Shown here: piece after piece, positions 21,355 to 46,929 of the stretch
Layout: each line of letters begins with the position of its first letter
Numbering within the stretch: position 1 is the stretch's first letter
DNA from: Chitinophagales bacterium
GTDB lineage: Bacteria; Bacteroidota; Bacteroidia; Chitinophagales; Chitinophagaceae
Assembly (NCBI GenBank): GCA_015655015.1
Contig: JAATFV010000063.1
Span: 1 to 64,000 of the forward strand
Length of the DNA: 64,000 nt
Direction: 5' to 3'
Translations under genes and position numbers: made by a program
Notes under the pieces: generated by a model
Told to the model about the DNA's origin: nothing
The model's input: the letters and a program-made list of their open reading frames with translations, nothing else
The model's database searches: none

Positions 21355-23706
21355 TTATTTTCTTTTACGCCTGATCAAAAGAACAGTTCCCCCCAGCAGT
21401 AAAAACCCGGGCAGGATGCCCAGCAAAAGGATACGGAGGCTGGTCATGCCCGCATTGGTAAGGCTGAGGCCGTTGTCTTTGCCCTTCGGCCGGGAGGTGT
21501 CGATGGGGAACTCCCCGTAGCTGAACCAGCTGAACAGAGCCGTGCTGAAATCAAAATTACAAGCCCTGAGATTGGTCCGGCCCAGTTCCGCATTGCTCAG
21601 AAAATCTGCATCGCCGGCCACGACAATACGCTGTTGTTTTCCATTAATGGTGCGCGTGAGACCAATCACCGCCGGCAACGGAGCATTTTGATCGCCTTCG
21701 GCAGGAGAATAGGTCAGTTGCCCTGCGCTCATAACAGGACCACTCCTGTTTTCTGTGGACTCGATCTCCTCCTCATTCGGTTTGACCTTTTTGTTCCAGC
21801 AGAACTTTCCATCTGTCATCAGAAACGGTATCACCGTAAAGGGACCGTCAGTGTTGTAAGACAATGCTGCAGCACCACGCATGGTTACGCACAGACTGTC
21901 TTCTGCATCCTTATGCAGTCCTTTTGTCAGCGCAGCAACTGCCGGCGTCAGAAAGGGTTGGATCAATTCCGGCGAGAAATCCTTATTGGGCTGAACCAGC
22001 ATACCGTCCATCATTTGCACGCCGAGGGATTGCAGGATAGGATTGAGCACAGCTTGTTTGCCCGGCTCCCCGGCGAGCAGCAGATTGCCGCCTGCGGCGA
22101 TGTACTGCTGAATTTTCATCAGGGACGCCGTATCAAAGCTGACTTTTGGATCTGCAATGACCAGGGTAGCAATGTCCTTCGGGATATCCTGGTCTTTCAG
22201 CGAAATTGTCTCCACATCGAAACCCTGGTTGACAAGGGAATACCGGAAAACAACCTCGTTGGTCAGGATCTTATAATGCCGGTCCCCTGCCTTGTCTATG
22301 CTTCGTTCCAGCTCTCCCCCCAAAAACGCGATCTTCGGCATCTTTGCCTGTAATAACCGCTTCAGCGCCGCCCCTGTTTCCGTTTCGGAGGGGAATACCG
22401 CCGGGTCATCGAATAATCTCAGGAAGGTGGTCCTGTCCTTGTACCTGAGCTGCATCACATACCGGCCCTGTTCCCTGCTCAGGTCGACCATCTTTCTGAT
22501 CTCCGCCGGGGTTTTGAACAGGCGGAGATCCATTTTGGATGTCAGGGCGTACCTTTCCGCCAGGGCTTTCAGGGACATACCGGGGTTATATTTGTACAGG
22601 TTCCTGTTCGGAACGCTGTCGTAATAGTAAACATAATTGAACCGGATACCGGGCTTGAATCTCAGGTAAGGCTCCCAGCGCGTTAGGTCGGTATTGCGCT
22701 GGTTGGGCAGCCCGTACCAAAAGCGGCTGTCCAACAGATTCATATAGGTAGTTACTTCCAAAGGCTCGTCTCCCGTCTCTTTGATGATCTTTTGCGCATT
22801 GACGGTCAGGGTTCTGGACTTCGTCGCCGTAACATCGAGATACCCGATAAGACCCGGGCGGGAAGTCACATATCCGACGGCCAGGCCGGAAACGGTAATA
22901 AGGATATAACGGCCGGCTTTCACCAACGCCGGTTTCGATTCCCTGCCGGATTGCAGTTTGTAAATGCTGAACCCAAGGAACATATAAATGATGACCCAAA
23001 AATACAGGATATCCTTTGTGGTGATGAGTCCGCTCATCATATGTTCCGCGCGCCCGGAGATCGACAGGAAATAAGTCAGGTCCCTTACAAAATCGATATC
23101 CTGCCACATGGCGCCGATATAGGACAGCGCGGCCAGGAGGACCAGCGTGCTCAGTGCGGCCACCACCTGGTAAGCTGTCAGACAGGACATAAAAAGACCG
23201 ATGGCCGAATAAGCGCAAAGAAGGAGGTAAATCCCCAGGAGACCGGAGAACAGCAACCCGGCATCCGCCGACCGGATGTTAACCAGGGCAAACACGGCAA
23301 CTACGGCCAGCAAGACTATCAGCAGAAGATTGTAGATCATCATCGCCAGGAACTTGCCAAAGATGATCTGACTGACCTTTATGGGAGAGGAGTACAAGAG
23401 CCTGATCGTCCCGCTGCTGATCTCCCGGCTCATAAGTCCCATCGTGAGCAAGGGCAGGTACAAATATAAATTCCTCGTCATGGTGGAAAAAACTCCGAAA
23501 GGAGGGGCAAAGGTCCGCTGCGTCAGGAATACCAGGTATCTTAATCCTCTCCCGCCCAGTTCCTGGGTGGTGAGGGGATTTTCCAGGGCGTTGGTATAGG
23601 CCAGCCCGCACTGGAACAGGAATACGATCAGCAGGAACCAGGCGATCGGGGAGTAAAACAATATATTTAGCTCAAGTCGGGCGATCCTTACTATCTTCTT
23701 CATCAT
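21355..23706 (-). CDS. Fused ABC-2 permease and GldG-like protein (locus A)
   Basis: About 783 residues from the ATG at 23706, whose ATGA overlaps the stop of the ATPase gene. The frame stays open up to 24036, but that extension is only the other frame of the ATPase gene. The N-terminal third has six hydrophobic segments and the ABC-2 pattern 'LTMGLMSREISSGTIRLLYSSPIKVSQIIFGKF', as in GldF. The remainder is a soluble GldG-like domain ('VIADPKVSFDTASLMKIQQYIAAGGNLLLAGEPG', 'QRIVVAGDADFLSN') closed by a C-terminal membrane helix and 'RRKRK'. GldF and GldG are usually separate proteins of the gliding-associated ABC complex. Here they form one chain, as in the paralogue at 35831-38140. Confidence 0.85.
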   Translation of the reverse strand: MMKKIVRIARLELNILFYSPIAWFLLIVFLFQCGLAYTNALENPLTTQELGGRGLRYLVFLTQRTFAPPFGVFSTMTRNLYLYLPLLTMGLMSREISSGTIRLLYSSPIKVSQIIFGKFLAMMIYNLLLIVLLAVVAVFALVNIRSADAGLLFSGLLGIYLLLCAYSAIGLFMSCLTAYQVVAALSTLVLLAALSYIGAMWQDIDFVRDLTYFLSISGRAEHMMSGLITTKDILYFWVIIYMFLGFSIYKLQSGRESKPALVKAGRYILITVSGLAVGYVTSRPGLIGYLDVTATKSRTLTVNAQKIIKETGDEPLEVTTYMNLLDSRFWYGLPNQRNTDLTRWEPYLRFKPGIRFNYVYYYDSVPNRNLYKYNPGMSLKALAERYALTSKMDLRLFKTPAEIRKMVDLSREQGRYVMQLRYKDRTTFLRLFDDPAVFPSETETGAALKRLLQAKMPKIAFLGGELERSIDKAGDRHYKILTNEVVFRYSLVNQGFDVETISLKDQDIPKDIATLVIADPKVSFDTASLMKIQQYIAAGGNLLLAGEPGKQAVLNPILQSLGVQMMDGMLVQPNKDFSPELIQPFLTPAVAALTKGLHKDAEDSLCVTMRGAAALSYNTDGPFTVIPFLMTDGKFCWNKKVKPNEEEIESTENRSGPVMSAGQLTYSPAEGDQNAPLPAVIGLTRTINGKQQRIVVAGDADFLSNAELGRTNLRACNFDFSTALFSWFSYGEFPIDTSRPKGKDNGLSLTNAGMTSLRILLLGILPGFLLLGGTVLLIRRKRK

Positions 23707-24638
23707 TTGGTTTTTGGGGATTTGTTGGATAATTCTGCAAACACTTCGTCCAGAGAGCTCTTGTCCAGGCTGATCTCTCTCAGCTCCCAGCCACGCTCCA
23801 CGCTGGCCGCGATGATCCTGCCCGTGATGTCCGGGGCTCCGTTGAAATAAAGCCGCACCTGCCGCTCCGTAAGGAAGTCGACACGGGTGGCGCCCGGCAG
23901 CTGTAACAGCTCCGCCTCCGCCGGCGGATTCTCCATCCGCATCAGCACGCTGTGCGGCTCGACATAGTTGTTGAATGCGTCCATCGTGTCGGAGAAGACG
24001 ATCCTCCCCTCTTCGATCATCTTGATCTCCTTGCACAACACCTGGACCTCGGAAAGGATATGCGTGGAAAAGATAACCGCCCGGTCTACGGCAATCTCTT
24101 TGATCAGTGACCTTACTTCGATGATCTGGTTGGGGTCCAGTCCGTTCGTCGGTTCGTCCAGCACCACGAGCTTCGGCCGGTGAATGATAGCCTGGGCAAT
24201 GCCGACACGTTGACGATACCCTCCCGAGAGGTTACGGATCAGCCGTTGGCTGAAATGCGCGATGCCGCAGCGCTCCTTGGCATCTTCCAGTGCCGCCCTG
24301 ACGTGCTCCTTTTCGATCATTCGAAGGTAGGCGCAGTGGGTCAGGTATTCGTCCACGGTAAGGTCCATATACAATGGCGGGTTCTGGGGTAGAAAACCAA
24401 TCTGCCTTTTGGCCTCCACGGGGTTTTCCCGGAGGTTGATGCCATTGATATGGACGGTGCCTTCCGTTTGGTTCAGGGCGCCGCAAAGGATGTTCATCGT
24501 TGTCGACTTACCCGCCCCGTTGGAGCCCAGCAGGCCCACAATACCCGTCTGGCTGATGTCCATGTTAATGTCCCGGATCGCCCAGGCTTGGCTATACTTG
24601 TGAGACAGGTGCTCGACCTTTACTATCTGTTTTTCCAT
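23703..24638 (-). CDS. ABC transporter ATP-binding protein, GldA-like (locus A)
   Basis: A 311-residue ABC ATPase. Walker A GSNGAGKST at 38-46, Q-loop 'GFLPQNPPLY', signature LSGGYRQRVG, Walker B 'LVVLDEPTNGLDP', and H-loop 'FSTHILSE'. A C-terminal extension of about 90 residues is shared with its paralogue at 38156-39082. The last base pairs overlap the permease start. It lies 51 bp downstream of the susD gene and belongs to the same operon. It powers the fused permease; direction and substrate are unknown, though GldA-type ATPases drive exporter-like ABC-2 systems. Confidence 0.9.
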   Translation of the reverse strand: MEKQIVKVEHLSHKYSQAWAIRDINMDISQTGIVGLLGSNGAGKSTTMNILCGALNQTEGTVHINGINLRENPVEAKRQIGFLPQNPPLYMDLTVDEYLTHCAYLRMIEKEHVRAALEDAKERCGIAHFSQRLIRNLSGGYRQRVGIAQAIIHRPKLVVLDEPTNGLDPNQIIEVRSLIKEIAVDRAVIFSTHILSEVQVLCKEIKMIEEGRIVFSDTMDAFNNYVEPHSVLMRMENPPAEAELLQLPGATRVDFLTERQVRLYFNGAPDITGRIIAASVERGWELREISLDKSSLDEVFAELSNKSPKTK

Positions 24639-24689
24639 TATACGCTGTTATAAGAAATCATCTATATGGCTTAGATTGTTTATCCCATC

Positions 24690-26105
24690 TCAGTAGCCTA
24701 TATTTTGTATTAAAAGATTATCCAGCTGAAGCTGTGTCTGTGGCAAAGGATATAGTGCAGCATTCGCTTGCCAGCCTGTCTTTTCAGTACCAAGCACAGC
24801 ATCGGCCGTCGCAGTCCTTTTCAGATCAAACCATCTGTTGCCCCACTCGCAAAAGAGCTCCGTTTGGCGCTCATGTGCTATTGCATTCTGAACATCGTTC
24901 TGCGAAGAGGGGTCTGCAATGCTTTCGGGTAAACCTGCCCTGACTCTTACCCTATTCAAATCAGTCAAAGCATCTTCATTTTTACCGATATGCACGGCTG
25001 CCTCTGCGCGAAGGAGGTAGACCTCGGCAAGTCTGAAAATCATATAATCTTCTACTGGCGTAGCGCTTGTCAACCTGTTTTTGTATTTATAAGGATAAGA
25101 GTAATTATGACTATTCCCGCCAACATTTACCGTCACCGTTCCTACCCATTTTTGCAAACGTTGATCTCCGGCTTCAAAAGCACTCAATAAAGAAGGAGAC
25201 AATATATAAACCGGAGTAGTTCCAGTCGTGGAAGGCACAAAGAAATTGGCATCGGCAGTTACTTCATAGGGTCCTGTAGCCGGCAACTGCCAGATTGCTT
25301 CCTGGCTGCCGTCCAGAAATACTTTGGAAGGATCAGGATTTAAAGTATAAATCCCGGATTTTATTACCGAATCGGCCTCATTATAAGCATCCTGCCATTG
25401 CCCGCGAAACAGATGCACCTTAGCAAGAAAGGTCAATGCAGTATACAGATTCGGACGCGCTCTGCCTGCAGATGGATAAGCTGCTGTAAGATCCGAACCT
25501 GCATCTGAAAGATCCGACACGATCTGTGCATAAATGGAATCCACCGAAGTTCTGGCTATATGTGCGGTGTTATTATAATCAGTGGATGTAACCAGCGGAA
25601 CAGCTCCAAATAAATTAACCAGGTTGAAATAATAAAGAGCGCGCACGACCTTCATTTCTCCTACGATCTGCTTCCTGAAAGAAGAAGATAAATTATTATT
25701 GCTGGTAACATTCTGTAAAATGGCGTTTACCGGATAGATATTTTTATACACCGTTGACCATAATGTGTTTATGTTCCCGTTTATGGAGGTTAATCCATAA
25801 GAATAAAACGCTTGTAAATCAGCAGATGTACCTGTGTAAGACAATTCATCGGAAGAAAGGCCCGCACACCTGGTTAACAGGGCATCATCATAAGGGAAGC
25901 CTGAACCAGTGCCTGCTGTGTATACGTATACACCGGCAACCGCTGTCATAGCAGTAGAACTATCCGCGAATTGCCCCGATTCGGCAATCTCGGAAGGAGG
26001 ATTAGGGGGAATTTCAATCAATTTCCTGCATGACGAATTCAATAAAATAAATAATATCCCGCCAATCAATTTAATTATATTCTGATAATATTTTTTCATG
26101 ATCAT
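24690..26105 (-). CDS. SusD/RagB-family outer-membrane lipoprotein (locus A)
   Basis: A 471-residue SusD-like protein. The signal peptide ends with the lipobox 'LLNSSC'; the mature lipoprotein sits on the cell surface over its SusC partner. Typical family parts are present: TPR-type helices in the first half ('MKVVRALYYFNLVNLFGAVPLV', 'YTALTFLAKVHLFRGQWQDAYNEADSVI') and the C-terminal 'YMIFRLAEVYLLRAEAAVHIGKNEDALTDLNRVRVRAGLP' with 'HERQTELFCEWGNRWFDLKRT'. It follows susC by 7 bp. The ligand cannot be inferred. Confidence 0.93.
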   Translation of the reverse strand: MIMKKYYQNIIKLIGGILFILLNSSCRKLIEIPPNPPSEIAESGQFADSSTAMTAVAGVYVYTAGTGSGFPYDDALLTRCAGLSSDELSYTGTSADLQAFYSYGLTSINGNINTLWSTVYKNIYPVNAILQNVTSNNNLSSSFRKQIVGEMKVVRALYYFNLVNLFGAVPLVTSTDYNNTAHIARTSVDSIYAQIVSDLSDAGSDLTAAYPSAGRARPNLYTALTFLAKVHLFRGQWQDAYNEADSVIKSGIYTLNPDPSKVFLDGSQEAIWQLPATGPYEVTADANFFVPSTTGTTPVYILSPSLLSAFEAGDQRLQKWVGTVTVNVGGNSHNYSYPYKYKNRLTSATPVEDYMIFRLAEVYLLRAEAAVHIGKNEDALTDLNRVRVRAGLPESIADPSSQNDVQNAIAHERQTELFCEWGNRWFDLKRTATADAVLGTEKTGWQANAALYPLPQTQLQLDNLLIQNIGY

Positions 26106-26112
26106 GTATTAA

Positions 26113-29100
26113 TTAGAGATGAAGGCTTACACCAAAAGCAATTATTCGCTGCATGGGAAAAGAGTTGTACGAGAACTGTTCCGGGTCCCCGACCTTATAA
26201 TTAGTAATAGTCAGTAAATTCTGCGCATTTATGTAAACACTACCATCCTGGATATGGAGTCTGCTGATAAGTGAATTGGGAAGTGAATAAGAAAGCGCTA
26301 CGGTTTTTAACCGTAGATAAGTATCATTGCTGTATACGCCGCTGGAAGATGTAAAATCAGATGCAGGTACCGCTGCAACGGAGCTATATCCGGTCATTAA
26401 TCTTTGCAAAGCAGCCTGGTCCCCCTTCTCTTTCCAGTAATTATTTAACAATTGCACCGGCTGATTATAAATGGTTCTTCCGGGGGAATACGAGCTATAC
26501 ATCGTATATAAATAATTGGGCGCCATTTGGCTGGAAAATTGAAAGAAAACATAAACACTAAAATGTTTATAAGTGATAGTATTCCCCAAACCGCCCATAT
26601 AGTTGACTTCACGATTGGCTATCGGCACAATATCCCCTCCCTGGGCAGCCAATAAAGAACTGGGCTTTGAGGTATCCCCTCCATTTTTAGTGTAGAATTC
26701 AAAAAGCCCTGTTGCCGGGTTGACATCTTTATACCTATAACCTAATATTATCGAGGTCGGCTGGCCGATTACGTACTTCGAGTTATAAGAAGATGACGCA
26801 AGATTAGGGAATGAGATCAGCTTATTACGATTGAACGAAATATTAAAATTGGTAGACCAGGTAAAGTTTTTGGTTTTTATATTATTCGAAGTCAGTGTAA
26901 ATTCCCATCCCTGATTCTGGACGGTAGCATTAAGGTTCTCCAGGACATTTGCAAAGCCGGTGTGTATTGGCAAGGGGTAGCCCGCTAATTGATTGCTCTC
27001 CCGGTCACGATACCAGGTTGTATTCAGCAATAACCTGTTTTTGAAAAACCCAAGATCCAGCGCAATATTCAGTGACTTTTTTAGCCCCCAGCTGTAATCG
27101 GGATTATACAGATTTACAGGTGCATTGGGCTGCACTCCCTGGAAAGGAGTAAGATAGGGTTTCCAGAATGCCTGATATTGATAAGCCTGAATACCATCCG
27201 ATCCGCTGGTTCCATAATCACCGGATAATTTAGCGTAGCTTATAAAAGGCAATGCGTTTTTCACCCCTTTTTCTTCCGAAAATATCCAGGCGCCGCCGGC
27301 GGACCCGAAATTCCCAAACTGGCGTCCCGGGCCAAAATTACTGGACCCATCTCTTCTACCTGTCAGGCTGACAATATATTTCTGGTCATAAATATATTTT
27401 ATCCGGGCAAAACCTGCGCTATATTTATATATGCCTGCGTTGTCAGAAGCAGTCAACGTTGCAGCTCCGACAATAGATCCCAGAAAATTATCATTTGCGT
27501 ACCCTGAGCCCTGAATAGTATTTGAGCTGCTGGTATTCTTCTTATAAGTACCGCCCAGTAAAGCAGAGAACATACCTTTTCCTATCCGCCTGGTATAATC
27601 TACCAGCGGCTCTATATTAAGGGTCTGAAAAGCCGAATTCGCAAAATTTGCCGTCCTGTTGATATATAAGGGACTCTGTGCAGAAGCGGGACTCTGAGAT
27701 TGTTCAGAAGTCGTATTCCTGCTATAGCCCATATTGGCACTGACAGTCAATCCGTCAATTATTTTGTAGGCGATGCGTAAGGTGTTGTTTAAATTATAGT
27801 TCTGTAAACCGGTAGGCCTTTTCAAATAAGCATAAAACTGATAGCTGCTTAAGTCTATGCCTTGATAGTTCCATATCAAATTTTTCTGTGCATCTAACAG
27901 ATCCGGAGTATTGGGAGGTAACAGCATATCCTGACTGCCTCCAAATCCCGGCGAATTGTTCTGATCGTAGGCATAATCCGTACCAAAATCTATACTAAAG
28001 TGGTTATCGGTTGAGGAATGATGAACAGCGCTATGGATCGTCCATCTTTGTTCTGCATAATTACCCGGATAATTATAATTTGATCGGGTATATCCTCCTG
28101 ACAATATAAACGTGTTATTGTAGGAGCCTCCTGATACACTTCCGTGAATATCCGTATTGCTGGACGTCTTGCCAAAAATGACCTTTTGCCAGTCTGTATA
28201 TTTATTCTGATCGAAGATGGTTAACTCCGGACTGTAACCCGAATTGGATGGATTATTGCTTGGAACAATCCCGTCGGCGGCAAAAGCGTCTTTTCTTAAC
28301 TGAATATACTGTGGTGTATTCATAAGTTTCACCGATCTCGCGTCAGAATTGAATCCTGAATTGACATTGAGATTAAAAACAGTTTTACCCGGCTTACCCT
28401 TTTTGGTAGTAATTAATATGACGCCATTTGATCCCTGTGTCCCATAAATAGAGGTGGCATCTGCATCTTTTAATATGCTGATACTTTCGATATCATTCGG
28501 ATTAATATTGTTAAAAGGGCTGAATCCTCCTGCCTGACTGATCCCGCCGCTAAAACTTTGGACATTGGCAAGAGAGCTTAATTGATTGATATTATTATTT
28601 TGGGGGGCAAACGGAACTCCATCTATGATAAATAATGGCTGATCATACGGTTTGAACCCACTATAAGTGCTTGCGATGGTATTTTCACCTCTTATTTGCA
28701 CCAATACTCTTGATCCCGGAACACCACTGGTGGCATTGACGGTAAGTCCTGGCGCCTGACCTTCCAATGCCAATAAAACATTGGTTACCGGCTGCTTTTC
28801 GATGGTCTCCGCATTGACCGAGGCAATCGATCCCACGCTGAAACGCCGGGAGGTGGTGCCATAGGCCTGAACGATGGTGGCGTCCAGGCTATTTATCGCC
28901 TGTTTGGTTCTAACGATCAAATTCGTTTTCCCTCTTACTTTCATTTCCACGGTTTCTATACCAACACTGCTGAATACCAGGGTGGCATTTTCATCTATTC
29001 TTTTCAGCTCAAATTCCCCCTTTTCACCCGTGATCGTTCCTTTTCCTGTTCCTTTCACTGTTACATTCGCTCCTGCAAACGGTTGTCCCGCCTCATTATA

Positions 29101-29541
29101 AACCGTTCCATGAATGTCTATTTTTGCGGGTGCATTCGGGAGGAGGACCGTATCCCCTGCCTGAAGGAGAGGGTCTGTTTCTTTCGACCGGATCACGATC
29201 GCGCCGTTGACCAGGCTATACATAAAGGGCTGATCTTTCAGGCAAGCCTGCAGGGTCTCTTCCAGGCTGGCATCCTTAACAGAAAGGCTCACCGGACTGG
29301 ACTCGCGCAGCATTTCTTCGTCGTACATGACGGAGAGCCCCGTCTGCCGGGAAATTTCTTTGAAGACAGTACGGAGGGGAGACTGCCGGACGGTCAACGT
29401 GATCTTCTGGGCCCGGATGGCGGCGCTGGCATGAAGTCCGGCGATAAGAAGGAAAACAGCAGTTAGTCTCATAATGCGAAACGTTTTGGCGGTCATTGTC
29501 CGCCTCCAAAAGGAGGCTTTCCCGCGAAAAATTAAATGCAT
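26113..29541 (-). CDS. SusC/RagA TonB-dependent transporter with STN signalling domain (locus A)
   Basis: A 1142-residue outer-membrane transporter. After a signal peptide (about 20-45) comes an STN (secretin/TonB N-terminal) domain of about 70 residues ('TVFKEISRQTGLSVMYDEEML'), which in FecA-like systems passes the ligand signal to a FecR anti-sigma. A carboxypeptidase-regulatory-like fold (about 135-215), the plug ('QGSNGVILITTKKGKPG') and the 22-strand barrel ending in '..IIAFGVSLHL' follow. The ATG at 29541 is supported because the paralogous susC also begins ATGCATTT at the matching place. With FecR and the sigma factor upstream it should form a cell-surface signalling circuit. Confidence 0.93.
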   Translation of the reverse strand: MHLIFRGKASFWRRTMTAKTFRIMRLTAVFLLIAGLHASAAIRAQKITLTVRQSPLRTVFKEISRQTGLSVMYDEEMLRESSPVSLSVKDASLEETLQACLKDQPFMYSLVNGAIVIRSKETDPLLQAGDTVLLPNAPAKIDIHGTVYNEAGQPFAGANVTVKGTGKGTITGEKGEFELKRIDENATLVFSSVGIETVEMKVRGKTNLIVRTKQAINSLDATIVQAYGTTSRRFSVGSIASVNAETIEKQPVTNVLLALEGQAPGLTVNATSGVPGSRVLVQIRGENTIASTYSGFKPYDQPLFIIDGVPFAPQNNNINQLSSLANVQSFSGGISQAGGFSPFNNINPNDIESISILKDADATSIYGTQGSNGVILITTKKGKPGKTVFNLNVNSGFNSDARSVKLMNTPQYIQLRKDAFAADGIVPSNNPSNSGYSPELTIFDQNKYTDWQKVIFGKTSSNTDIHGSVSGGSYNNTFILSGGYTRSNYNYPGNYAEQRWTIHSAVHHSSTDNHFSIDFGTDYAYDQNNSPGFGGSQDMLLPPNTPDLLDAQKNLIWNYQGIDLSSYQFYAYLKRPTGLQNYNLNNTLRIAYKIIDGLTVSANMGYSRNTTSEQSQSPASAQSPLYINRTANFANSAFQTLNIEPLVDYTRRIGKGMFSALLGGTYKKNTSSSNTIQGSGYANDNFLGSIVGAATLTASDNAGIYKYSAGFARIKYIYDQKYIVSLTGRRDGSSNFGPGRQFGNFGSAGGAWIFSEEKGVKNALPFISYAKLSGDYGTSGSDGIQAYQYQAFWKPYLTPFQGVQPNAPVNLYNPDYSWGLKKSLNIALDLGFFKNRLLLNTTWYRDRESNQLAGYPLPIHTGFANVLENLNATVQNQGWEFTLTSNNIKTKNFTWSTNFNISFNRNKLISFPNLASSSYNSKYVIGQPTSIILGYRYKDVNPATGLFEFYTKNGGDTSKPSSLLAAQGGDIVPIANREVNYMGGLGNTITYKHFSVYVFFQFSSQMAPNYLYTMYSSYSPGRTIYNQPVQLLNNYWKEKGDQAALQRLMTGYSSVAAVPASDFTSSSGVYSNDTYLRLKTVALSYSLPNSLISRLHIQDGSVYINAQNLLTITNYKVGDPEQFSYNSFPMQRIIAFGVSLHL

Positions 29542-33015: not shown

Positions 33016-33112
33016 GACTTAAAGTTAAATAATTTTTATCATATAGTTACTCCAAATTTTGTTTGGGTTAATTTGAAAAAGTGAAATGCGTGGATAAAGT
33101 GAGCGCAAAATC

Positions 33113-38155: not shown

Positions 38156-39082
38156 TTATCGAAGCGTTTGAGTAGATAATTGTTTGAAGATGTCGTCGAG
38201 CAGGCCTTTTTCCAGGTTGATCTCCTTTAGCCTCCACCCATGCTGCATACTGGCTGCCACTATTCTTTCCGTGATCCCGTCATCGCCGTCAAAATAGATG
38301 CGGACCTGCCGGTCACTCAAAAATGCCGCCCTGGTAACGCCTGGTATTTTGAGCAGCTCCGTGACCGGGGGCGGGTTTTCCATCCGCACCAGGATACTCT
38401 GCGGCTGGGCATAATTGTTAAAGGCGTCCATGGTATCGGAGAAGATGATCCGTCCCCCTTCCATCATGATCACGTCCCTGCAGAGCAAGTGTATCTCGGA
38501 TAAAATATGAGAGGATAAGAGTACCGTATGATCGATGGCGATCTCTTTGATCAGCTTTCTGGCTTCTATCAGCTGGTTGGGATCCAGTCCGTTGGTGGGT
38601 TCGTCCATGACCACCAGCCTGGGCTTATGGATAATGGCCTGTGCGATCCCCACCCGCTGGCGGTAGCCGCCGGACAGATTGTGGATCAGCCGGGTGCTGA
38701 AATGCGTGATGCCGCAACGTTCCTTCGCTTCCTCTACAGCGGCCGGGATCTTATGTTTCTCCATTCTCCGCAGCTGCGCAGCGTAGGAGAGGTATTCATC
38801 TACGGTAAGGTCGGTATACAACGGCGGGTTCTGCGGTAAAAAGCCGATCTCTTTTTTGGCGGCCTCCGGTTCTTCCCGGGTGTCCATACCATTGATATAA
38901 ACATGGCCTTCTGTCTGGTTCAATACCCCGCAGAGGATGTTCATGGTAGTAGACTTACCTGCGCCATTGGATCCCAGCAGTCCCACTACGCCGGTCTGGC
39001 CTATTTCAAGATTAACATCCCGTATAGCCCAGGAGCTGCTGTACTTGTGGGAAAGTCGTTCGATTTTCAGAATAGTGCTCAT
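38156..39082 (-). CDS. ABC transporter ATP-binding protein, GldA-like (locus B)
   Basis: A 308-residue ATPase closely similar to that of locus A. Walker A GSNGAGKST at 37-45, 'GFLPQNPPLY', LSGGYRQRVG, Walker B 'LVVMDEPTNGLDP', H-loop 'LSSHILSE'. The two share the unusual C-terminal extension including 'FSDTMDAFNNY' and 'MENPP'. The gene lies 13 bp after the DUF4397-like gene and 15 bp before the permease, inside one long operon. Confidence 0.9.
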   Translation of the reverse strand: MSTILKIERLSHKYSSSWAIRDVNLEIGQTGVVGLLGSNGAGKSTTMNILCGVLNQTEGHVYINGMDTREEPEAAKKEIGFLPQNPPLYTDLTVDEYLSYAAQLRRMEKHKIPAAVEEAKERCGITHFSTRLIHNLSGGYRQRVGIAQAIIHKPRLVVMDEPTNGLDPNQLIEARKLIKEIAIDHTVLLSSHILSEIHLLCRDVIMMEGGRIIFSDTMDAFNNYAQPQSILVRMENPPPVTELLKIPGVTRAAFLSDRQVRIYFDGDDGITERIVAASMQHGWRLKEINLEKGLLDDIFKQLSTQTLR

Positions 39083-39095: not shown

Positions 39096-39863
39096 TTAAT
39101 AATTATTGGCTAAAAAGACGATTTGTGTCGACCCGGTCGTCCCTGCGGCCGGCAAGCCGGCGAGGATCAGCGTGAAGTTGCGGTAGCGCCATAAGTTGTT
39201 CGCGGTATTGTTCCCGGCGTCGTTGTTCACACCGTCGAACGTATAACTGCCCAGCAGGATGCCGGCAGCATCCCTGAATTCGAACACATAACTGCCGGTG
39301 GCGGAAGTGGCCGGATAAGTTTTGAAGGCAGTGATGCTTTTATACGGAAGACTGGCCGTTTCGGACCCGTTGGCTTGTCCCTGGATATTCACGCTCACGG
39401 GACCGCTGCCGGGGGAAAGGTTGACCAGCCGTATGCCGAAGCTGCTGTCCTGCGGGGGATGAACCGGAAGGATATCCGTCGTGAACAAAGTATCCGGTGC
39501 ACTCGTAGTACCTGTTAAAAATAACGTGTGTACGCTACCAATAAGAAGATCGATTCTCAGATCAAAGAGGGGCGTGCTTTTTTCAAGTGTGTCGGGATAT
39601 TGGTACAGCTTCAGCGGCTGCGTGCCGCTATAGGAGCTGGTCTCATAGTAGGGTGAATAACTGCCGTATTGGACCTGCATGGCACTGTAATACCATTCAA
39701 TGGAGTAAGTGTCGCTGAAGTTGGTGGCCAAGATATTACTGCCTGCCACCGCGTTGATGAGGGTGAGCGAGGCCGTGCCGGATCCCGTGCTGCTTTTTTT
39801 ACAGGCAAAAAGTACCGGCAACAGCAGGAAGACCCGTGACATCCGGAGGAGTCCGTGTTTCAT
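39096..39863 (-). CDS. DUF4397-like lipoprotein
   Basis: A 255-residue secreted lipoprotein: signal peptide 'SRVFLLLPVLFAC' with Cys at the lipobox, then a beta-rich domain opening with 'ASLTLINAVAGSNI' and, further on, 'FGIRLVNLSPGSGPVSVNIQG', the strand pattern of DUF4397 proteins. Such proteins are frequently encoded after SusCD pairs in Bacteroidota and lie on the cell surface. No enzymatic motif is visible. The gene is absent from locus A. It sits between susD (43-bp gap) and the ATPase gene (13-bp gap). Confidence 0.65.
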   Translation of the reverse strand: MKHGLLRMSRVFLLLPVLFACKKSSTGSGTASLTLINAVAGSNILATNFSDTYSIEWYYSAMQVQYGSYSPYYETSSYSGTQPLKLYQYPDTLEKSTPLFDLRIDLLIGSVHTLFLTGTTSAPDTLFTTDILPVHPPQDSSFGIRLVNLSPGSGPVSVNIQGQANGSETASLPYKSITAFKTYPATSATGSYVFEFRDAAGILLGSYTFDGVNNDAGNNTANNLWRYRNFTLILAGLPAAGTTGSTQIVFLANNY

Positions 39864-39906: not shown

Positions 39907-41367
39907 CTAATGATAACCCGGGTTCTGGACCAGGTTATGGTCCGCTAAGATCTCCGAAACCGGGATCGGGTATAACAATTGGTAATCGCCCTCCCAGGGT
40001 TGTTTTACCGGAATAACAGACAACACGTTATGCGCCTGTCCTGTCCTTTTCAGATCCAGCCAGCGGTGGCCCCATTCGGCGAAGAGCTCTGTCTGCCGTT
40101 CATGCGCCACGGCAGCAATCACCTGGTCGTGGAGCAGAGAAAACGGCAGATCGGGTAAGCCTGCCCGGTGGCGGAGCACGTTCAGATCCGTGATGGCAGC
40201 GGCGTCCCCTCCGGCCGCCCCATTTGCTTCCGCTTCGGCTTTTATCAGGTACTGTTCCGCCAGGCGGAGCACCATATAATATTCCGTGGCTGTGCCGCCT
40301 ACCGAATAGTCAGCTGTTCCTGTCTTATACTTATAGGGGAAATAGTAGAGGCCGGTGGAATTATTATCGGTGCTGTCGACCCATTTCGATCTGCGCTGAT
40401 CACCGGTCTCGAAGGCATCCAGCAGCTGGCTGGAAAGATAAAAAGATACCAGTCCCGTCGAAAGGGGATTGGGAAGCATCGCGATGCCCTCCGGAGTGGC
40501 ATTCCCTACATTGGCCACCGAAGTGTTCTGCTGCAATTGCCAGATGGCTTCGGTGCTGTTCTTCCAAAAAACTTCTTTCAGGTCGCTTACCAGGTTATAT
40601 TGGGTGGTATACCCGATGACTGCGGCTGCCTGGGTGGCCGCGCCGGTATAATCGCCGGTAAATAAAAGGACCCGGGCCAGCAGGGCGGTCGCGGCCCATT
40701 TGTTGGGCCGGATCCTTTCGCCCGCTGCTACCGAATAATCGGCCGGCAATACCGATTGAGCGTCCTTAAGATCGTTAATGATCTGCTGGTAGACCTTCAC
40801 CTGTGGTGTCCTGGCCATCGTAGTGGTCTGGTTGAAGTCGATCGTGAGCGCGAGCGGTACGTCTCCGAATAAATTGGTGAGATAAAAATAACTAAAGGCC
40901 CGGATGAATTTGGCTTCTCCCGTTAATTCTTTCCGCACGCTATCGCGCAGGGAGGCAGAAGTGGAAGCCGCGATACCTTCTATCACCGCATTAGCTCCAT
41001 AGATCGCTGTATAGGCCGTGGTCCATATGGTATTGGAAGACAAGCTAGTGGTCAGCAGGTGGTTGCTGTTATATAACTGGTATTCACCCGTGGCCTGATA
41101 AAACATCAATTCGTCTGAAGACAATCCGCCGAGCAAGGTCGTAAGGCCATCGCTAAAGTTGGCATAGATACTATTGTTGATACCGGTGTTGCCATTGATC
41201 AGCTGCGTATAGATCCCCGCCAGCGCTGAATTGGCCTGTTGTTCGGTAGCGAATACCCCGGCCGTCGTCTGGCTGTTGACAGGTTCCGGAACAGACACGA
41301 GCTTTCTGCAGGAGACTCCTGACAGTGTGAAAACGATTAAAATAAAGAGATAACTATTGACTCGCAT
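39907..41367 (-). CDS. SusD/RagB-family outer-membrane lipoprotein (locus B)
   Basis: 486 residues from the ATG at 41367 (MRVNSYLFILIVFTLSGVSC). The open frame reaches 41433, but the signal peptide and lipobox 'LSGVSC' fix the start at 41367. SusD features: 'FIRAFSYFYLTNLFGDVPLAL', 'ATALLARVLLFTGDYTGAATQA', 'MVLRLAEQYLIKAEAEANGA', 'LNVLRHRAGLPDL' and 'HERQTELFAEWGHRWLDLKRTG'. It starts 10 bp after the end of susC. It should cap the STN-containing SusC of the same locus. Confidence 0.93.
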   Translation of the reverse strand: MRVNSYLFILIVFTLSGVSCRKLVSVPEPVNSQTTAGVFATEQQANSALAGIYTQLINGNTGINNSIYANFSDGLTTLLGGLSSDELMFYQATGEYQLYNSNHLLTTSLSSNTIWTTAYTAIYGANAVIEGIAASTSASLRDSVRKELTGEAKFIRAFSYFYLTNLFGDVPLALTIDFNQTTTMARTPQVKVYQQIINDLKDAQSVLPADYSVAAGERIRPNKWAATALLARVLLFTGDYTGAATQAAAVIGYTTQYNLVSDLKEVFWKNSTEAIWQLQQNTSVANVGNATPEGIAMLPNPLSTGLVSFYLSSQLLDAFETGDQRRSKWVDSTDNNSTGLYYFPYKYKTGTADYSVGGTATEYYMVLRLAEQYLIKAEAEANGAAGGDAAAITDLNVLRHRAGLPDLPFSLLHDQVIAAVAHERQTELFAEWGHRWLDLKRTGQAHNVLSVIPVKQPWEGDYQLLYPIPVSEILADHNLVQNPGYH

Positions 41368-41377
41368 GGTTGACGCT

Positions 41378-44300
41378 TTAGAAGTTGAACGATATCCCGC
41401 CGGTGAAGATCTTCGCGGGAGGCATGGCTCCAAAACTCTGTATTTCCGGATCGATGCCTTTATATCCCGTGATCACAAAAATATTCTGTGCATTGATGAA
41501 CAGGCTGCATCGCTGCATGCCGGCTTTATTTGCCAAACCGGCCGGGAGATTATACGAAAAAGACAGTGTGGACAGCCGGATATAAGAGGCATCCGTATAG
41601 GCCCGGTCCGATGTCTGAAAATTGTAATCGCTGGTTGTGCCCTGGGTCGTAAAACGAGCGTAACAGGCTTTATCTCCCGGCTGCTGCCAGCGGTCTTTGA
41701 AGATATCGACGGAGAGGTTGCCAAATCCGCCCGGCACGACGCCTGTGTAATAGGCGTTCTGGGCCTTTTGTTTTTTAAAGCTAAAGAAGAAACTCAGTGC
41801 AAACTCCTTATAGTTGAATTGGTTGCCGAATCCGCCGAAAAATTTAGGGTCGAGATTGATGGCTACGGAACGATCGTCATCCTGTGTTCCCGGAATAACG
41901 GAGTTGTCGGACATAATGCTGCCATCATGATTGGCATCCGCGAACCCGTATTGTCCTGTTTGCGGATCTATGCCCGTGTAATGTAAGAGATATCGGTTGT
42001 TAATGGGCTGACCGACCTTATAGGTAGTTGCATAGGGAGAATTCCCGATATTGGGATAAGCCAGCAGGGTGTTCCTGTTGAAAGAAAGATTGGCCTTGAC
42101 GGACCAGGAGAAGTTCTTGACCTGGAGCAATTTCGCATCCAGCAGGAACTCCCATCCGTCGTTCTGTATGGTAGCCGGCCAGTTCGCCGTCACGCTCGGA
42201 AATCCGGAAAAAACAGGCGTAGGATACTGCAGCAGCTGGTTATTACAGCGATTGCGATAATAGGCGGCCTCTACATTGATCCGGTTGTCTTTGAGGAAAC
42301 CCAGGTCCAGGGCGAGCTCTCCTTTCTTATTTACCTGCCAGTGATAATCCTGGTTGACGGCATGTTCGTTCACCAGGGGGGATATACCGCCATAAGTATA
42401 AAGCGGTGTATAATTTCCTAATTCGCTATTAGCCCATTGGGAAAGATATTGGTACTCGCCCACCGCATCGCTGCCCGTGAGACCATAACTGCCCCTGAGC
42501 TTGACGAAGCTGAAGACTGCCGGCAGGGCCCGTCTCAGCCATTTCTCTTCCGTGGCTATCCAGGCGAAACCCGCGGAGCCGAAATTGCCGAACTGTCTTC
42601 CGGGCCCGAAACGGGAAGATCCGTCCCTGCGGACATTCAGGTTCAGGATATATTTATTCGCCCAATCATAATTGATCCGGCCGAAGACGGCGGCATATTT
42701 GTATTGTGCATACTGTTCGTTCGCGATGATCATCGAGGCTCCTGAGATGGTCCGGATGAACGCATCATTGGTATAACCGAGACCATATTGCAGGGCGCCG
42801 TCGGTCATGGAGGCTTGTGTGCTGGCGCCTGCCAGTACATTCAGCTTGCCTTCTCCGATAAAGAGGGTATAGTCGATCTGCGGCTCGATGATCCAGTTGG
42901 AGATCTTATTGGTCCCGAAAAAAGCCGTTCCTGCGGGGCTGGATATCGGATCCTGGGAGGTAATGGGAGACAGCAGACTCTGACCGAGATCCGTATTATT
43001 ATAACCCATACTGGCTGCAAGCGTCAGCCCTTTTACCAGTTCGTAGTTAAGGGACAGGTTGCTGGTGAGAAAATTAGTCTTCGTCGTATAGGGCGATAAA
43101 AGAGGTGCAAAAGGATATTGATATCCGATACCAGCGGCATCCCAGGGGGCGTAGTTCAGCCCTCCGGTTTTATTATAGATCGGGGGAGCATCCGGGGGTA
43201 AGGTGGCCGCGCTGGGTGTGCTGATGGTATTGACGCCTGCATAAGAATAATTGGCAGTCAGGGAGACCGACAATTTCTGATTCAACGTATGGTGGGTGAG
43301 ATTAAAGGATAATGTCGCCCTTTGATTGGCCCCGCTTTGGGTGAGGATCTCCGTCTGACGGCGATAGTCGGCGCCGATACGGAATACGGTACGGCCATCT
43401 CCTCCTGTCAGGCCTGCCTGCACATCGGTAACCCTGCCCGTACCTCCCCATAAGGACTTCTGCCAGTCCTCATTCCGCGTCGTGTCCCATAATAACAGGT
43501 CGGGAGCGTTAGCGATAGTAGGGGTAATGCCGTCATTCCTGAAGGCCTCCCGCCGCATCTGTAAATATTGCGTGGTATTGAGCATGTTCCAATGGCGGGT
43601 CACCTTGCTGATACCCTGGGTGGCATTCAGGCTGAACCCGGATTTGCCGGCCTTTCCCTTTTTGGTGGTAATGAGGATCACCCCGTTGGCGCCGCGCGAA
43701 CCGTAAATGGCCGTGGCATCGGCATCTTTCAACACTTCCATGCTCTCAATGTCCGCGGGGTTAAGGCTAAAGAAAGGGCTCTGGCCCCCGGTCACCGCCG
43801 GCAGGCCGTTCTGAACAAAACCGGTCGATCCGTATTGATAGTTGGAATTACCGCCTGTTTCCAATACGGTGAGCGGGACGCCATCGATGATGTACAAGGG
43901 ATCCGAGGTGAAGCTGGCGTTGATTGTGCTTCGCCCTCTTATTTCCACTTTCGCGGTGCCGCTGGCATATCCCGAGTTCGGGGTGATTACCAGGCCGGCG
44001 ACCCTTCCCTGCAATGCCAGCAAGGGGTTCATCACCGGCTGTTTTTCTATTTCTTCGGCGGTCACTTTGGCTATATTACCCGTAGCCAGCCGCCGGCTGG
44101 TCATTCCATAGGCCTGAACGACGCTCTTATCCAGTTCGCTAACCGCGGCAGTCAAACCGACCATCAGGTAGCCGCCATCCCTGACCTCCAGCTGACGGGT
44201 ATTGTAGCCGATATAACTAACGACCACCATACTGTTCAACGGCAGCTCCGGCAGTTCAAATTCTCCTTTTGTATTGGTGATCGCTCCTTTACTTTTTCCT

Positions 44301-44776
44301 TTTACCGATACGGTAGCTCCGGATAAGAACTGACCGGTTTCATTAAAAACCAATCCTTTTACATGGATCCCCGGGATTGGGGGAAGATGAGCCGTATCCT
44401 CCGGGATTGCAGGCGCCCGGGCAGTCTTTGGCTTAACGACGATCACCCTGTCCCGGATAATATATTCCAGCGGCTGGTCACGGGAGCAGAGTTCCAGCAC
44501 CTCCGCGAGGCTGGCATTTTTTACGCTGATATCAATCTTCCGGGTGTCCTGCAGGGTCTCGTCATTATAGAGAAACTGGTACCCTGTCTGCTGATAGATC
44601 GAGCGGAAGATCTTTTCCAGGGAAGCCCCCTTTTCGGATAACGTGATCAGCTGTCCGTAACTACGGGCCTGCACCTGGAGACAGGCAGCGAGGATGAAAA
44701 CAGCCATAAGCTTCATTATGCAGAAAGTTTTGGTTAGCCGGTCGCCCGGCCGTCTGAAAAGAGCCTTAAAATGCAT
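41378..44776 (-). CDS. SusC/RagA TonB-dependent transporter with STN signalling domain (locus B)
   Basis: A 1132-residue transporter built like that of locus A: signal peptide ('IMKLMAVFILAACLQVQA'), STN domain ('KIFRSIYQQTGYQFLYNDETL'), regulatory-like fold, plug ('GSRGANGVILITTKKGKAG') and barrel ending in '..IFTGGISFNF'. It therefore both imports and signals to the FecR protein encoded upstream. The ATG at 44776 has the same ATGCATTT context as the paralogue. Plug and barrel loops differ strongly from locus A, as expected if the two copies recognise different ligands. Confidence 0.93.
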   Translation of the reverse strand: MHFKALFRRPGDRLTKTFCIMKLMAVFILAACLQVQARSYGQLITLSEKGASLEKIFRSIYQQTGYQFLYNDETLQDTRKIDISVKNASLAEVLELCSRDQPLEYIIRDRVIVVKPKTARAPAIPEDTAHLPPIPGIHVKGLVFNETGQFLSGATVSVKGKSKGAITNTKGEFELPELPLNSMVVVSYIGYNTRQLEVRDGGYLMVGLTAAVSELDKSVVQAYGMTSRRLATGNIAKVTAEEIEKQPVMNPLLALQGRVAGLVITPNSGYASGTAKVEIRGRSTINASFTSDPLYIIDGVPLTVLETGGNSNYQYGSTGFVQNGLPAVTGGQSPFFSLNPADIESMEVLKDADATAIYGSRGANGVILITTKKGKAGKSGFSLNATQGISKVTRHWNMLNTTQYLQMRREAFRNDGITPTIANAPDLLLWDTTRNEDWQKSLWGGTGRVTDVQAGLTGGDGRTVFRIGADYRRQTEILTQSGANQRATLSFNLTHHTLNQKLSVSLTANYSYAGVNTISTPSAATLPPDAPPIYNKTGGLNYAPWDAAGIGYQYPFAPLLSPYTTKTNFLTSNLSLNYELVKGLTLAASMGYNNTDLGQSLLSPITSQDPISSPAGTAFFGTNKISNWIIEPQIDYTLFIGEGKLNVLAGASTQASMTDGALQYGLGYTNDAFIRTISGASMIIANEQYAQYKYAAVFGRINYDWANKYILNLNVRRDGSSRFGPGRQFGNFGSAGFAWIATEEKWLRRALPAVFSFVKLRGSYGLTGSDAVGEYQYLSQWANSELGNYTPLYTYGGISPLVNEHAVNQDYHWQVNKKGELALDLGFLKDNRINVEAAYYRNRCNNQLLQYPTPVFSGFPSVTANWPATIQNDGWEFLLDAKLLQVKNFSWSVKANLSFNRNTLLAYPNIGNSPYATTYKVGQPINNRYLLHYTGIDPQTGQYGFADANHDGSIMSDNSVIPGTQDDDRSVAINLDPKFFGGFGNQFNYKEFALSFFFSFKKQKAQNAYYTGVVPGGFGNLSVDIFKDRWQQPGDKACYARFTTQGTTSDYNFQTSDRAYTDASYIRLSTLSFSYNLPAGLANKAGMQRCSLFINAQNIFVITGYKGIDPEIQSFGAMPPAKIFTGGISFNF

Positions 44777-45001: not shown

Positions 45002-46261
45002 TCAGGCAATGACCGTCACCTTTGACCCTTCCACCAGGAATTTCACTTTTTCGGTCGATTCCAGCATGGCCAATACCTGGGAGAGACTGTTATTCCGGCT
45101 GATGATGCCGCTGAAATGCTTTCCCGTGACATCTCCCTGGTAGACAATTTCCACATTGTACCACCGGCTCAGCTGCCGCATGATGGATCTTATATCGTCC
45201 CTGGAAAAAATAAACAGATTGTTCTTCCAGGCTACTACCCTTTCCATATCGGCGTCCTGAGAAATGCTGATCTCTCCTTTCCGGCTCATTGCTGCCTGCT
45301 CTCCCGGCTTCAGCAGCGCCGTCCGGATCCGGATGCTTCCTTCCAGCAGGGTTGTCTTTATATAAGTCTCTTCCGCATATGCATTGACATTAAAACTCGT
45401 TCCTAATACCTCTATTTCGTTTTTCTTTTCACCGGATCCCTGATTGTCCTTTTCTCCGCTTCGGCGATCGTCTCTTTCCCCAGTTCCCTGATCGTCCGAA
45501 GAGCGGGAAACGATCTCTACCTTAAACGGTTTCCCCGCATCTTTCACCACTTCAAAATAAGCTTCGCCGGTGATGACCACCTTCCTGTCCTTACCCGTAA
45601 ATACCGTGGGATACGAGATGGAAGAAGCCGCATTGAGCCAGACTTTGGAACCATCCGGCAATACCAGCTGATATTGATTGCCCTGATGGGTGGTCAGGGT
45701 ATTGTACACGGCGCTGACGGATCTTTCCTGTAATGAATTATAGGCCAGCAGGCCATTGCGGTTCACAATCTCGGAATTACCCTGCCTGCTGATCGTTCCA
45801 CTGGCAGTACTGTCCAGGACGATCTGGCGACCGCCAGCCAGGGTGAGAACGGCGGCATTCTTTCCGGGGGCGACATCGTTCCTTATCCGCTGTTCCCGGG
45901 AGAGCCCCTGCTGCCTGGAAGCCGTATTATAAAAGAAAAAATAAGCGCCGCCCAGCAGGACCAGCAGGATCGCCGCCGCAGCCCACCATCCTTTATTACT
46001 GCCTGCAAAAAGACGGATCGGAGACTTTTGCAGGGCAGGCACGACTCCTGTTCCCAGGATTCTATCAAGCGCCTCTTTGCGGGACGCAGCGTCAGAAAGA
46101 CCATGGAAAGCGGCATTATTCCACACTTCACCTGCCAGGCCCATCCACAGCTCCTTATTCTCCGGTTGCTGCAGGCTGGTCCATAGTTGCTGAAACTCCT
46201 CTGCGGAAAGTTCTTCCACCAGGTATTTCTCTAATAATATCTTTATAGCTTCTTCGGTCAT
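45002..46261 (-). CDS. FecR-family anti-sigma factor (locus B)
   Basis: A 419-residue anti-sigma: sigma-binding N-terminus, a membrane helix at about 92-110 ('WAAAAILLVLLGGAYFFFY'), FecR domain ('LPDGSKVWLNAASSISYPTVFTGKDRKVVITGEAYFEV') and DUF4974-type end ('IMRQLSRWYNVEIVYQGDVTG', 'LSQVLAMLESTEKVKFLV'). An acidic/basic insertion of three 8-aa repeats (D-[DN]-x-x-[ST]-G-E-[KR]) interrupts the FecR domain and is encoded by a 24-bp tandem repeat at 45427-45498. The paralogue in locus A has no such insertion. It lies 80 bp after the sigma gene. Confidence 0.93.
   Translation of the reverse strand: MTEEAIKILLEKYLVEELSAEEFQQLWTSLQQPENKELWMGLAGEVWNNAAFHGLSDAASRKEALDRILGTGVVPALQKSPIRLFAGSNKGWWAAAAILLVLLGGAYFFFYNTASRQQGLSREQRIRNDVAPGKNAAVLTLAGGRQIVLDSTASGTISRQGNSEIVNRNGLLAYNSLQERSVSAVYNTLTTHQGNQYQLVLPDGSKVWLNAASSISYPTVFTGKDRKVVITGEAYFEVVKDAGKPFKVEIVSRSSDDQGTGERDDRRSGEKDNQGSGEKKNEIEVLGTSFNVNAYAEETYIKTTLLEGSIRIRTALLKPGEQAAMSRKGEISISQDADMERVVAWKNNLFIFSRDDIRSIMRQLSRWYNVEIVYQGDVTGKHFSGIISRNNSLSQVLAMLESTEKVKFLVEGSKVTVIA
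45427..45498 (-). repeat. Three 24-bp tandem repeats inside fecR of locus B
   Basis: Units 45427-45450, 45451-45474 and 45475-45498 are diverged copies that keep the frame and encode DDQGTGER / DDRRSGEK / DNQGSGEK. Confidence 0.75.
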
Positions 46262-46341
46262 AATGATTCGATTGGATAGGCCTTCCTGTTAAAGACAGCT
46301 AATTAAAGCGGCAGGAAGTGCCGGGGTTAAAATTTATTTTT

Positions 46342-46929
46342 TTAATCGAAGAGGAACCGGAATAACAAAACGAAGATAGCCGCATGCTCCTGGAGATATT
46401 TCCGTAAAAAGGCAATGGCCCGAACGATGTAGTCTTTAACGGAAGCCTTTGTCACGCCTAGTTGCACCGCAATCTCTTCGTGGCTCAATCCCTGCTCCCG
46501 GCTAAGACGGAAAGCCTTCTGCTGCTGGGGCGGCAGCTGACGGACGCCTGCTTCCAGGACCTCCAGCAGCTCCCGGGCGCCTGCCGGGAAAGCCGGTTCA
46601 GCGGTCGCGCCGGTCAGCCGGTATTTCACATAACTCCGGTACGCGTCTTCCAGCTTCAGGCGGCTCATTTTATTATAGATCAGGTTGCGGGAAGCAACGA
46701 ACAAAAAACTTTCCAGGTTTTGGATGCTGGCTGCCTCCGGATGGTTCTGCCACAATTTCAGAAAAACTTCCTGGGCGATGTCCTGGGCAAGCTCAGCGGA
46801 TTTGGAAAGGATGAGCGAAGTGGAGTATACTTTATCCCAGTAACGTTCAAACAGCAGGGTGAAGGCCAACCGCTCTCCCGAGGAGAGCATACGGAGTAAG
46901 TATTCATCAGAGTAAGTTGAATCAATCAA
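46342..46929 (-). CDS. ECF RNA polymerase sigma factor (locus B)
   Basis: A 195-residue ECF sigma with region 2 ('LLFERYWDKVYSTSLILSKSAELAQDIAQEVFLKLW') and region 4 ('LPPQQQKAFRLSREQGLSHEEIAVQLGVTKASVKDYI'). The annotated start is TTG at 46929, with an in-frame TAA four codons upstream. An internal ATG at 46890 would begin just before the conserved 'LSSGERLAF' and cannot be excluded. It heads the long operon of locus B and is divergent from the phospholipase gene with a 58-bp spacer. Confidence 0.92.
   Translation of the reverse strand: MIDSTYSDEYLLRMLSSGERLAFTLLFERYWDKVYSTSLILSKSAELAQDIAQEVFLKLWQNHPEAASIQNLESFLFVASRNLIYNKMSRLKLEDAYRSYVKYRLTGATAEPAFPAGARELLEVLEAGVRQLPPQQQKAFRLSREQGLSHEEIAVQLGVTKASVKDYIVRAIAFLRKYLQEHAAIFVLLFRFLFD

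Follow-up and report, generated by a model that had tools for sequence, protein, structure and literature searches.

Why should an inner-membrane ATP-binding cassette (ABC) system resembling GldA and GldFG be encoded directly behind an outer-membrane SusC-SusD transporter and its signalling genes? The question is raised by a stretch of 64,000 nucleotides from a Chitinophagales bacterium of the Chitinophagaceae (assembly GCA_015655015.1, contig JAATFV010000063.1, positions 1 to 64,000), here called the window, which carries two such operons head to tail on the minus strand: operon A (31572 to 21355) and operon B (46929 to 33113). Operon A consists, in order, of an extracytoplasmic function (ECF) sigma factor, FecR, STN-SusC, SusD, an ABC ATPase, and a fused ABC-2/GldG protein; operon B has the same order with a DUF4397 gene preceding the ATPase and two MutS-like ATPase genes after the fused protein. 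Assignment of the gene types by Pfam confirmed the order and common strand that an earlier reading of the letters alone (the sequence-only reading) had given. Its picture of two paralogous operons holds for the order and fails for the number, as the genome has about thirty copies, and the DUF4397 and MutS-like genes of operon B had not been named. The explanation that we consider best, with a probability of about 0.5, is that these are Fec-type regulated SusC-SusD uptake operons for protein-derived ligands, which share one ABC back end with a GIFT domain.

The ABC genes follow SusC and SusD in many genomes

To determine how regularly the two sets of genes occur together, the surroundings of matches in the window's own genome were typed with profiles built from the window proteins. 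The ATPase copies were reached through the permease (fused protein) loci, and no search was made for ATPases without a permease. Thirty-one distinct ATPase copies were obtained, 26 of which have at least 3.5 kb of upstream sequence on the stretch, and SusD and SusC lie upstream on the same strand in all 26 of these testable copies. FecR and the sigma factor are also found upstream in every one of the 11 copies with at least 9 kb of upstream sequence. In other genomes, the 80 loci nearest to the operon B permease were taken as the best of at least 546 confirmed; they come from Chitinophaga, Niastella, Flavitalea, Pseudoflavitalea, Pseudobacter, Pedobacter, Mucilaginibacter, Pararcticibacter, Sphingobacterium, and others. 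With six loci excluded that have less than 4 kb upstream, SusC and SusD are upstream on the same strand in 71 of 74. The three exceptions are L080, where SusD lies farther upstream in the same gene run, L091, with only 4.5 kb upstream, and L058, which is without SusC-SusD at that place. Among 14 further stretches from other genomes (phylum and genus matches), SusC-SusD precedes the ABC genes in 10. Of the remaining four, L182 has the pair downstream, and in L190 (at a contig edge) it lies on the downstream side of MutS. A sigma-FecR-SusC set is found in L189 past one additional gene, and no such genes are visible in L188, whose permease is at a contig edge. The sequence-only reading had stated that the link would be accidental if the ABC genes were rarely next to SusC-SusD in related genomes. 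Because 26 of 26 own copies and 71 of 74 testable loci elsewhere follow SusC and SusD, the link is not accidental.

The spacing of the genes is tight. With the first start codon taken as the gene start, which shortens the gaps, the median gaps in bases are 143 for FecR-SusC, 11 for SusC-SusD, 65 for SusD-ATPase, 9 for ATPase-permease, 5 for permease-MutS, and -4 for MutS-MutS. These gaps fit a single transcript from SusC onward, with a separate start possible before SusC; promoter and terminator scans returned weak sites only. The loci of family f5 run sigma, FecR, SusC, SusD, ATPase, and permease, followed by a gene of 936-937 amino acids, an M16 peptidase in the one that was scanned. In a variant layout, observed at L065, L071, L073, L076, L082, L083, L087, L107, L110, L111, and L115, a sigma gene separates SusD from the ATPase, and two different permease genes follow one another.

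The window's genome (8.1 Mb, 259 contigs, 5.85% contamination) contains 33 stretches that match the operon B fused protein at E<=1e-60 when all 49 candidates are scored, and contig ends truncate some of these stretches; the genus survey, in which 32 of the 49 were scored, lists 32. The distribution in the genus is patchy: 23 of 33 genomes have no match, and the 10 that do include the window's own and two with 14 and 10 copies. At the family level, a match at E<=1e-100 was obtained in 21 of 194 genomes (up to 5 candidates scored per genome); one of these, an assembly of about 40 contigs listed with 0 contamination, has 36 copies, and another genome of the family, G594, has 3. Across the phylum, a match at E<=1e-50 was obtained in 11 of 395 genomes (up to 2 candidates scored per genome). 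An assembly artefact or contamination is unlikely to be the cause of the copies because the closest permeases among 20 operons are only 77% identical and because of the clean genome with 36 copies. Some copies look decayed or mis-sequenced: at L019 (G000:C248:325865-328144) and L021, one permease copy has an internal stop and one ATPase copy is split into two open reading frames (ORFs).

Genes of the two operons

The signalling genes of operon A are an ECF sigma factor (30976..31572; Sigma70_r2 and r4_2) and a FecR-type anti-sigma protein (29675..30910; FecR and FecR_C), and those of operon B are the corresponding genes at 46342..46929 (Sigma70_r4_2 and r2) and 45002..46261 (FecR and FecR_C). 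Both operons thus have the complete Fec-type signalling set, consisting of an ECF sigma factor, FecR with its C-terminal domain, and an STN domain on the transporter, all adjacent. The STN-SusC protein of operon A, a TonB-dependent type (26113..29541; STN, CarbopepD_reg_2, and Plug), scores 635 bits against TIGR04056 and that of operon B (41378..44776; STN and Plug) 679 bits, both over the cut-off of 368.25. With an adjacent SusD lipoprotein in each case (24690..26105 in operon A and 39907..41433 in operon B; SusD_RagB and SusD-like_3 in both), they are SusC-SusD transporters. An internal ATG near 41367 is the likely start codon of the operon B SusD. No carbohydrate-active enzyme was found by Pfam in operon A or B, and neither is classed as a polysaccharide utilization locus.

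The GldA-like ATPases lie at 23703..24638 (operon A; ABC_tran) and 38156..39082 (operon B; Pfam). They are followed by the fused proteins, at 21355..23700 in operon A (ABC2_membrane_2 for the membrane part and ABC_transp_aux for the GldG-like, GIFT-type periplasmic domain) and at 35831..38140 in operon B (Pfam and curated profiles). The fused permease of operon A most likely starts near 23700, giving 781 amino acids, rather than at 24036, the start of an ORF of 893 amino acids. The DUF4397 protein of operon B (39096..39863; PF14344) has a lipoprotein-like leader, as read from its translation. The two MutS-like ATPases of operon B lie at 34530..35828 and 33113..34429. All of these genes are on the minus strand.

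Elsewhere in the window, the interval between the operons (31929-33084) has a KilA-N domain gene and a small ORF, both on the plus strand, and a 1248-amino-acid ORF with no Pfam match at E 0.01 lies at 13741-17487. Genes for KDPG-aldolase and 2-keto-3-deoxygalactonokinase (19505-21257) come immediately after operon A in the same orientation and are probably unrelated to it. A third SusC-SusD locus (47855-60351), with GH109-like, glucosamine-6-phosphate isomerase-like, amidohydrolase, and MFS genes and a LacI regulator, has no sigma/FecR or ABC matches; it is of an ordinary-looking amino-sugar type, in contrast to operons A and B.

Separate histories of the transporter and ABC modules

Comparison of operon A with operon B by BLASTP gave identities of 68% for the ATPase, 50% for the fused permease, 41% for SusD, 39% for SusC, 37% for FecR, and 31% for the sigma factor, and the sequence-only reading was correct that SusC and SusD have diverged far more than the ATPases. 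Its proposal that one operon was duplicated to yield two specificities does not stand. In the permease tree, operon A falls in a set of 12 rows, 11 of them from its own genome, and operon B in a cross-genus set of 23 rows. Distance correlations were calculated by Mantel tests over the 20 own-genome operons with all six genes, in which four permeases, one ATPase, and two sigma factors are fragments. The correlation is 0.96 for SusC-SusD and 0.77 for ATPase-permease, compared with 0.32 for SusC-permease (49 of 2000 permutations as high) and 0.27 for SusC-ATPase (95 of 2000). FecR and sigma correlate with SusC at 0.17 and 0.07, respectively, and sigma with the ATPase at 0.38 (31 of 2000). Among 21 operons with permeases of more than 700 amino acids, no region of the permease, GIFT included, tracks SusC closely (r 0.11-0.22).

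The permease tree and the module correlations rule out A and B as tandem duplicates of one operon, and because of them the ABC back end looks generic; to judge from these distances, the SusC-SusD and ABC modules reassort between operons. In a SusC tree of 59 own-genome rows (one relabelled by hand from an overlapping locus), all 26 ABC-linked rows lie within two sets of 13 and 19 rows, and the ABC label changes 6 times, or 4 times with unknown rows omitted, against a shuffled mean of 19.4.

The fused ABC-2/GIFT protein and the MutS-like pair

The AlphaFold model of the operon B fused protein has a mean pLDDT of 80.7. Foldseek matched it to the N-terminal GIFT domains of IFT52 (TM 0.61-0.71 by target), a human OST subunit, and a ThuA-like protein, and its membrane part to NosY, PmtCD, and ABCG2, the latter two at weaker E-values; a profile search agrees with the fold match (IFT52, E 3.7e-4). 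Because of these matches, the protein is predicted to be a NosY-like ABC-2 type membrane domain that bears a large periplasmic GIFT domain. The description as a GldA/GldFG-like ABC system was right as to shared domain types and wrong if taken as GldA/GldFG identity. The ATPases of operons A and B score 260.7 and 260.6 bits against GldA TIGR03522 (cut-off 402.6), and the fused proteins score 73 and 84.4 bits against GldF TIGR03518 (cut-off 288.5) and 17.8 and 21.8 bits against GldG TIGR03521 (cut-off 389.85). The genome has a separate GldF copy, G000:C147, that passes TIGR03518 with 297 bits, and the other 32 rows score 54-98; the gliding ABC is thereby ruled out as the identity of these proteins. 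Walker A and the signature motif of the ATPase are both intact in 133 of 133 ORFs (some loci overlapping).

The MutS-like proteins of operon B (432 and 438 amino acids, 42% identical to each other) consist of the MutS_III and MutS_V regions only. Mismatch-recognition domain I is absent from both by Pfam, and they are not classed as mismatch repair MutS. The best PDB sequence match spans residues 541-791 of E. coli MutS, and the model of the first protein (AlphaFold pLDDT 89.3) aligns to MutS and MSH2 chains in Foldseek. Walker A and Walker B are present in 163 and 160 of 164 MutS-like ORFs, respectively (some loci overlapping). MutS-like genes directly follow the ABC permease in 76 of the 80 loci (L044-L123) in nine named genera, a frequency biased by the choice of loci nearest to the operon B permease; in the window's own genome they accompany 5 of 29 permease rows of at least 700 amino acids, a total that includes the separate Gld-type copy. 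More distant MutS-like relatives (30-33%) were found at E<=1e-50, one to a genome, in 7 other genera of the family and in a single genome from another family, with no permease beside them in the short stretches seen. Because these relatives occur without a permease in view, the pair may derive from such a gene.

Neighbouring genes and the ligand

The neighbour set comprised 83 genes, each located either between SusD and the ABC genes or just after the latter, made up of 81 of 97 neighbours and 2 more; the 16 omitted were mostly short, duplicate, or beside copies without a SusC-SusD link, and include L009 (453 amino acids), L066 (2348 amino acids), and the aldolase after operon A. In the 25 of 51 families that were listed, these neighbours comprise 15 Peptidase_S41, 14 thioredoxin-like, 7 M16, 7 PKD_2, 4 DUF4843, 4 trypsin-like, 2 DPPIV_N, and 1 GH106. 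The 24 neighbours from the own genome include 5 thioredoxin-like, 5 PKD_2, 3 DUF4843, 2 M16, and 1 S9, and no glycoside hydrolase was present among the 25 of 27 families listed for them. As controls, 20 SusC-SusD operons were taken from the best-scoring SusC among 56 scored TIGR04056 matches (56 of 316 candidates scored). The 21 genes after SusD in these operons, several of which are cut by stretch ends, have lectin-like, rhamnosidase, GH2, and glucoamylase-type domains and include no peptidase or thioredoxin. Peptidases and thioredoxins thus make up 8 of 24 neighbours in the ABC operons compared with 0 of 21 in the controls (Fisher p = 0.004).

The relatives of the operon A SusC number at least 32 (150 of 283 candidates scored), and the first 26, query included, were inspected. 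Fourteen are linked to ABC genes, 1 is at a contig edge, and 11 are without ABC. In 8 of these 11, a TlpA-like thioredoxin directly follows SusD; one has a met-zincin peptidase, one has no same-strand neighbour, and one has a neighbour outside the scan. Because most members of the clade that lack the ABC genes have a thioredoxin after SusD, the two appear to be alternative partners of one SusC-SusD clade, and the peptidase and thioredoxin theme may go with the SusC clade and not with the ABC genes. According to the available part of PMC12636315, some peptide-product gene clusters often accompany SusC/SusD importers.

Proposed mechanism and alternative explanations

By analogy with known families, a ligand that arrives at SusC/SusD would signal through the STN domain to FecR and the ECF sigma factor, which would turn the operon on, and TonB would drive the ligand through SusC. 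The neighbouring genes suggest that the ligand is most likely a peptide, a protein fragment, or another protein-derived compound, to be processed by peptidases and thiol reductases encoded nearby. Together, the GldA-like ATPase and the ABC-2/GIFT protein would form one shared inner-membrane back end that either moves processed material across the inner membrane or spends ATP on material in the periplasm. Because the ABC sequence does not track the SusC-SusD sequence, the target of this back end is probably something that all the ligands share. Diverse SusC-SusD front ends would have been joined to the conserved back end, copied about thirty times in this genome, and the closely spaced MutS-like pair would have joined the unit in part of the ABC lineages. 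A more tentative reading, which we hold to be possible with the odds against it, is a modular uptake machine of Bacteroidota with many interchangeable surface receptors and one conserved motor in the inner membrane, in which the MutS-type pair, lacking mismatch domains, is a cytoplasmic component of membrane transport.

Several points weigh against uptake of protein-derived ligands with the help of the ABC proteins. Most ABC proteins of type V are exporters. The weak co-variation of SusC and permease argues against an ABC system matched to each ligand. No peptidase or thioredoxin was found by Pfam in operons A or B themselves, and the contrast with the control operons may stem in part from the SusC lineage, not from the ABC genes. 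The Peptidase_S41 count is inflated by seemingly orthologous loci of different Chitinophaga species, the neighbours include one rhamnosidase (GH106), and GIFT domains have been proposed as sugar binders in the available part of PMC7226087.

The last two points, together with the OST subunit among the fold matches, would suit glycan or glycopeptide ligands held by a sugar-binding GIFT domain, that is, polysaccharide loci with an ABC system. We consider this improbable: operons A and B encode no glycoside hydrolase, and none was seen in the families listed for the own-genome neighbours, whereas the control SusC-SusD operons have them. The chance is similarly small that the ABC proteins are an immunity exporter, with SusC-SusD and sigma/FecR sensing a toxic peptide or natural product, the ABC proteins expelling it, and the common neighbouring peptidases destroying it. 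After GldA, the ATPases do score best against DrrA and lantibiotic-protection ATPases, and the membrane domain resembles PmtCD and ABCG2 besides NosY. However, these ATPase matches are generic and under the cut-offs, a dedicated importer and exporter for the same compound would be wasteful, and most members of the same SusC clade without ABC genes have thioredoxins instead.

A non-transporting role has somewhat better prospects, although we still think it unlikely. The ABC proteins would act in the manner of NosDFY and pass the force of ATP to the periplasmic GIFT domain, aiding some common step, for instance the release or hand-over of substrate. Of the solved ABC membrane chains, NosY scores best; the periplasmic GIFT domain is large, the GIFT and membrane domains are about equally independent of the SusC sequence, and a thioredoxin can take the place of the ABC genes in the same SusC clade. 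Yet the likeness to NosY may reflect the ABC-2 class alone, and no NosD family match was found among the window operon genes. An accidental neighbourhood, in which the ABC genes have no functional tie to SusC-SusD, would agree with the reassortment of the modules, with the 11 of 26 SusC-SusD of one clade that are without ABC, and with L058 and L188, which carry ABC genes without SusC-SusD in the stretch seen. It is very improbable in view of the near-constant linkage, the tight gene gaps, and the clustering of ABC linkage on the SusC tree. Uptake of protein-derived ligands with a shared back end is the explanation that we retain.

To our knowledge, the inward movement of material after SusC is poorly known, and we know of no settled biochemical role for the GldAFG-type ABC proteins. 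A conserved operon that links a GldG-like ABC system to SusC-SusD in many genera, with more than thirty copies in two genomes, offers a direct route to test both. It also gives a hint of a large, hidden capacity for nutrients derived from protein, and the MutS-like pair, if it does work with a membrane ABC system, would be a surprising use of that fold.

Comparison with known systems

The sequence-only reading did not know the layout as a described system, and this was borne out by searches of the open-access literature: the portions available, including those of PMC9606717, gave no description of SusC-SusD with a GldG/GIFT ABC system. The combination of SusC-SusD, FecR/sigma, and GIFT-ABC is likewise not in the available parts of the Fec and Fus accounts (PMC11658791, PMC6793856, PMC7593965).

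Compared with SusC-SusD polysaccharide utilization loci, operons A and B share STN-SusC, SusD, and sigma/FecR and differ by the ABC back end and by having no carbohydrate enzymes. The GldA-GldF-GldG gliding ABC has the same domain types (GldA-like ATPase, ABC-2, and GldG/GIFT), but the copies linked to SusC-SusD are far under its cut-offs. NosDFY, which has a role in copper handling, provides in NosY the best solved match to the ABC membrane part; its periplasmic domain differs, and operons A and B have no NosD match.

Protease-associated import by the Fus proteins (FusA, FusB, FusC, FusD) and YddB-PqqL brings together a TonB-dependent transporter, peptidases of the M16 or another type, and a putative ABC gene, as far as the available parts of PMC6793856 and PMC7593965 describe it. 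An M16 gene likewise comes after the ABC genes in several of the related loci. The Fus systems were described for Proteobacteria from FusA homologues, and SusD, FecR/sigma, and GIFT-ABC are not in these portions of the accounts (PMC6793856, PMC7593965). Operons A and B, unlike Fus, have no M16 or other protease and no TonB gene, and their transporter is of the SusC type. The Fec system (FecI-FecR-FecA-FecBCDE), in the available part of PMC11658791, shares the ECF sigma factor, FecR, a TonB-dependent transporter with a signalling domain, and ABC genes. In contrast to Fec, the outer-membrane part here is a SusC-SusD pair, and the ABC proteins are of the ABC-2 type fused to GIFT. The FecBCDE ABC system is different in nature from this type.

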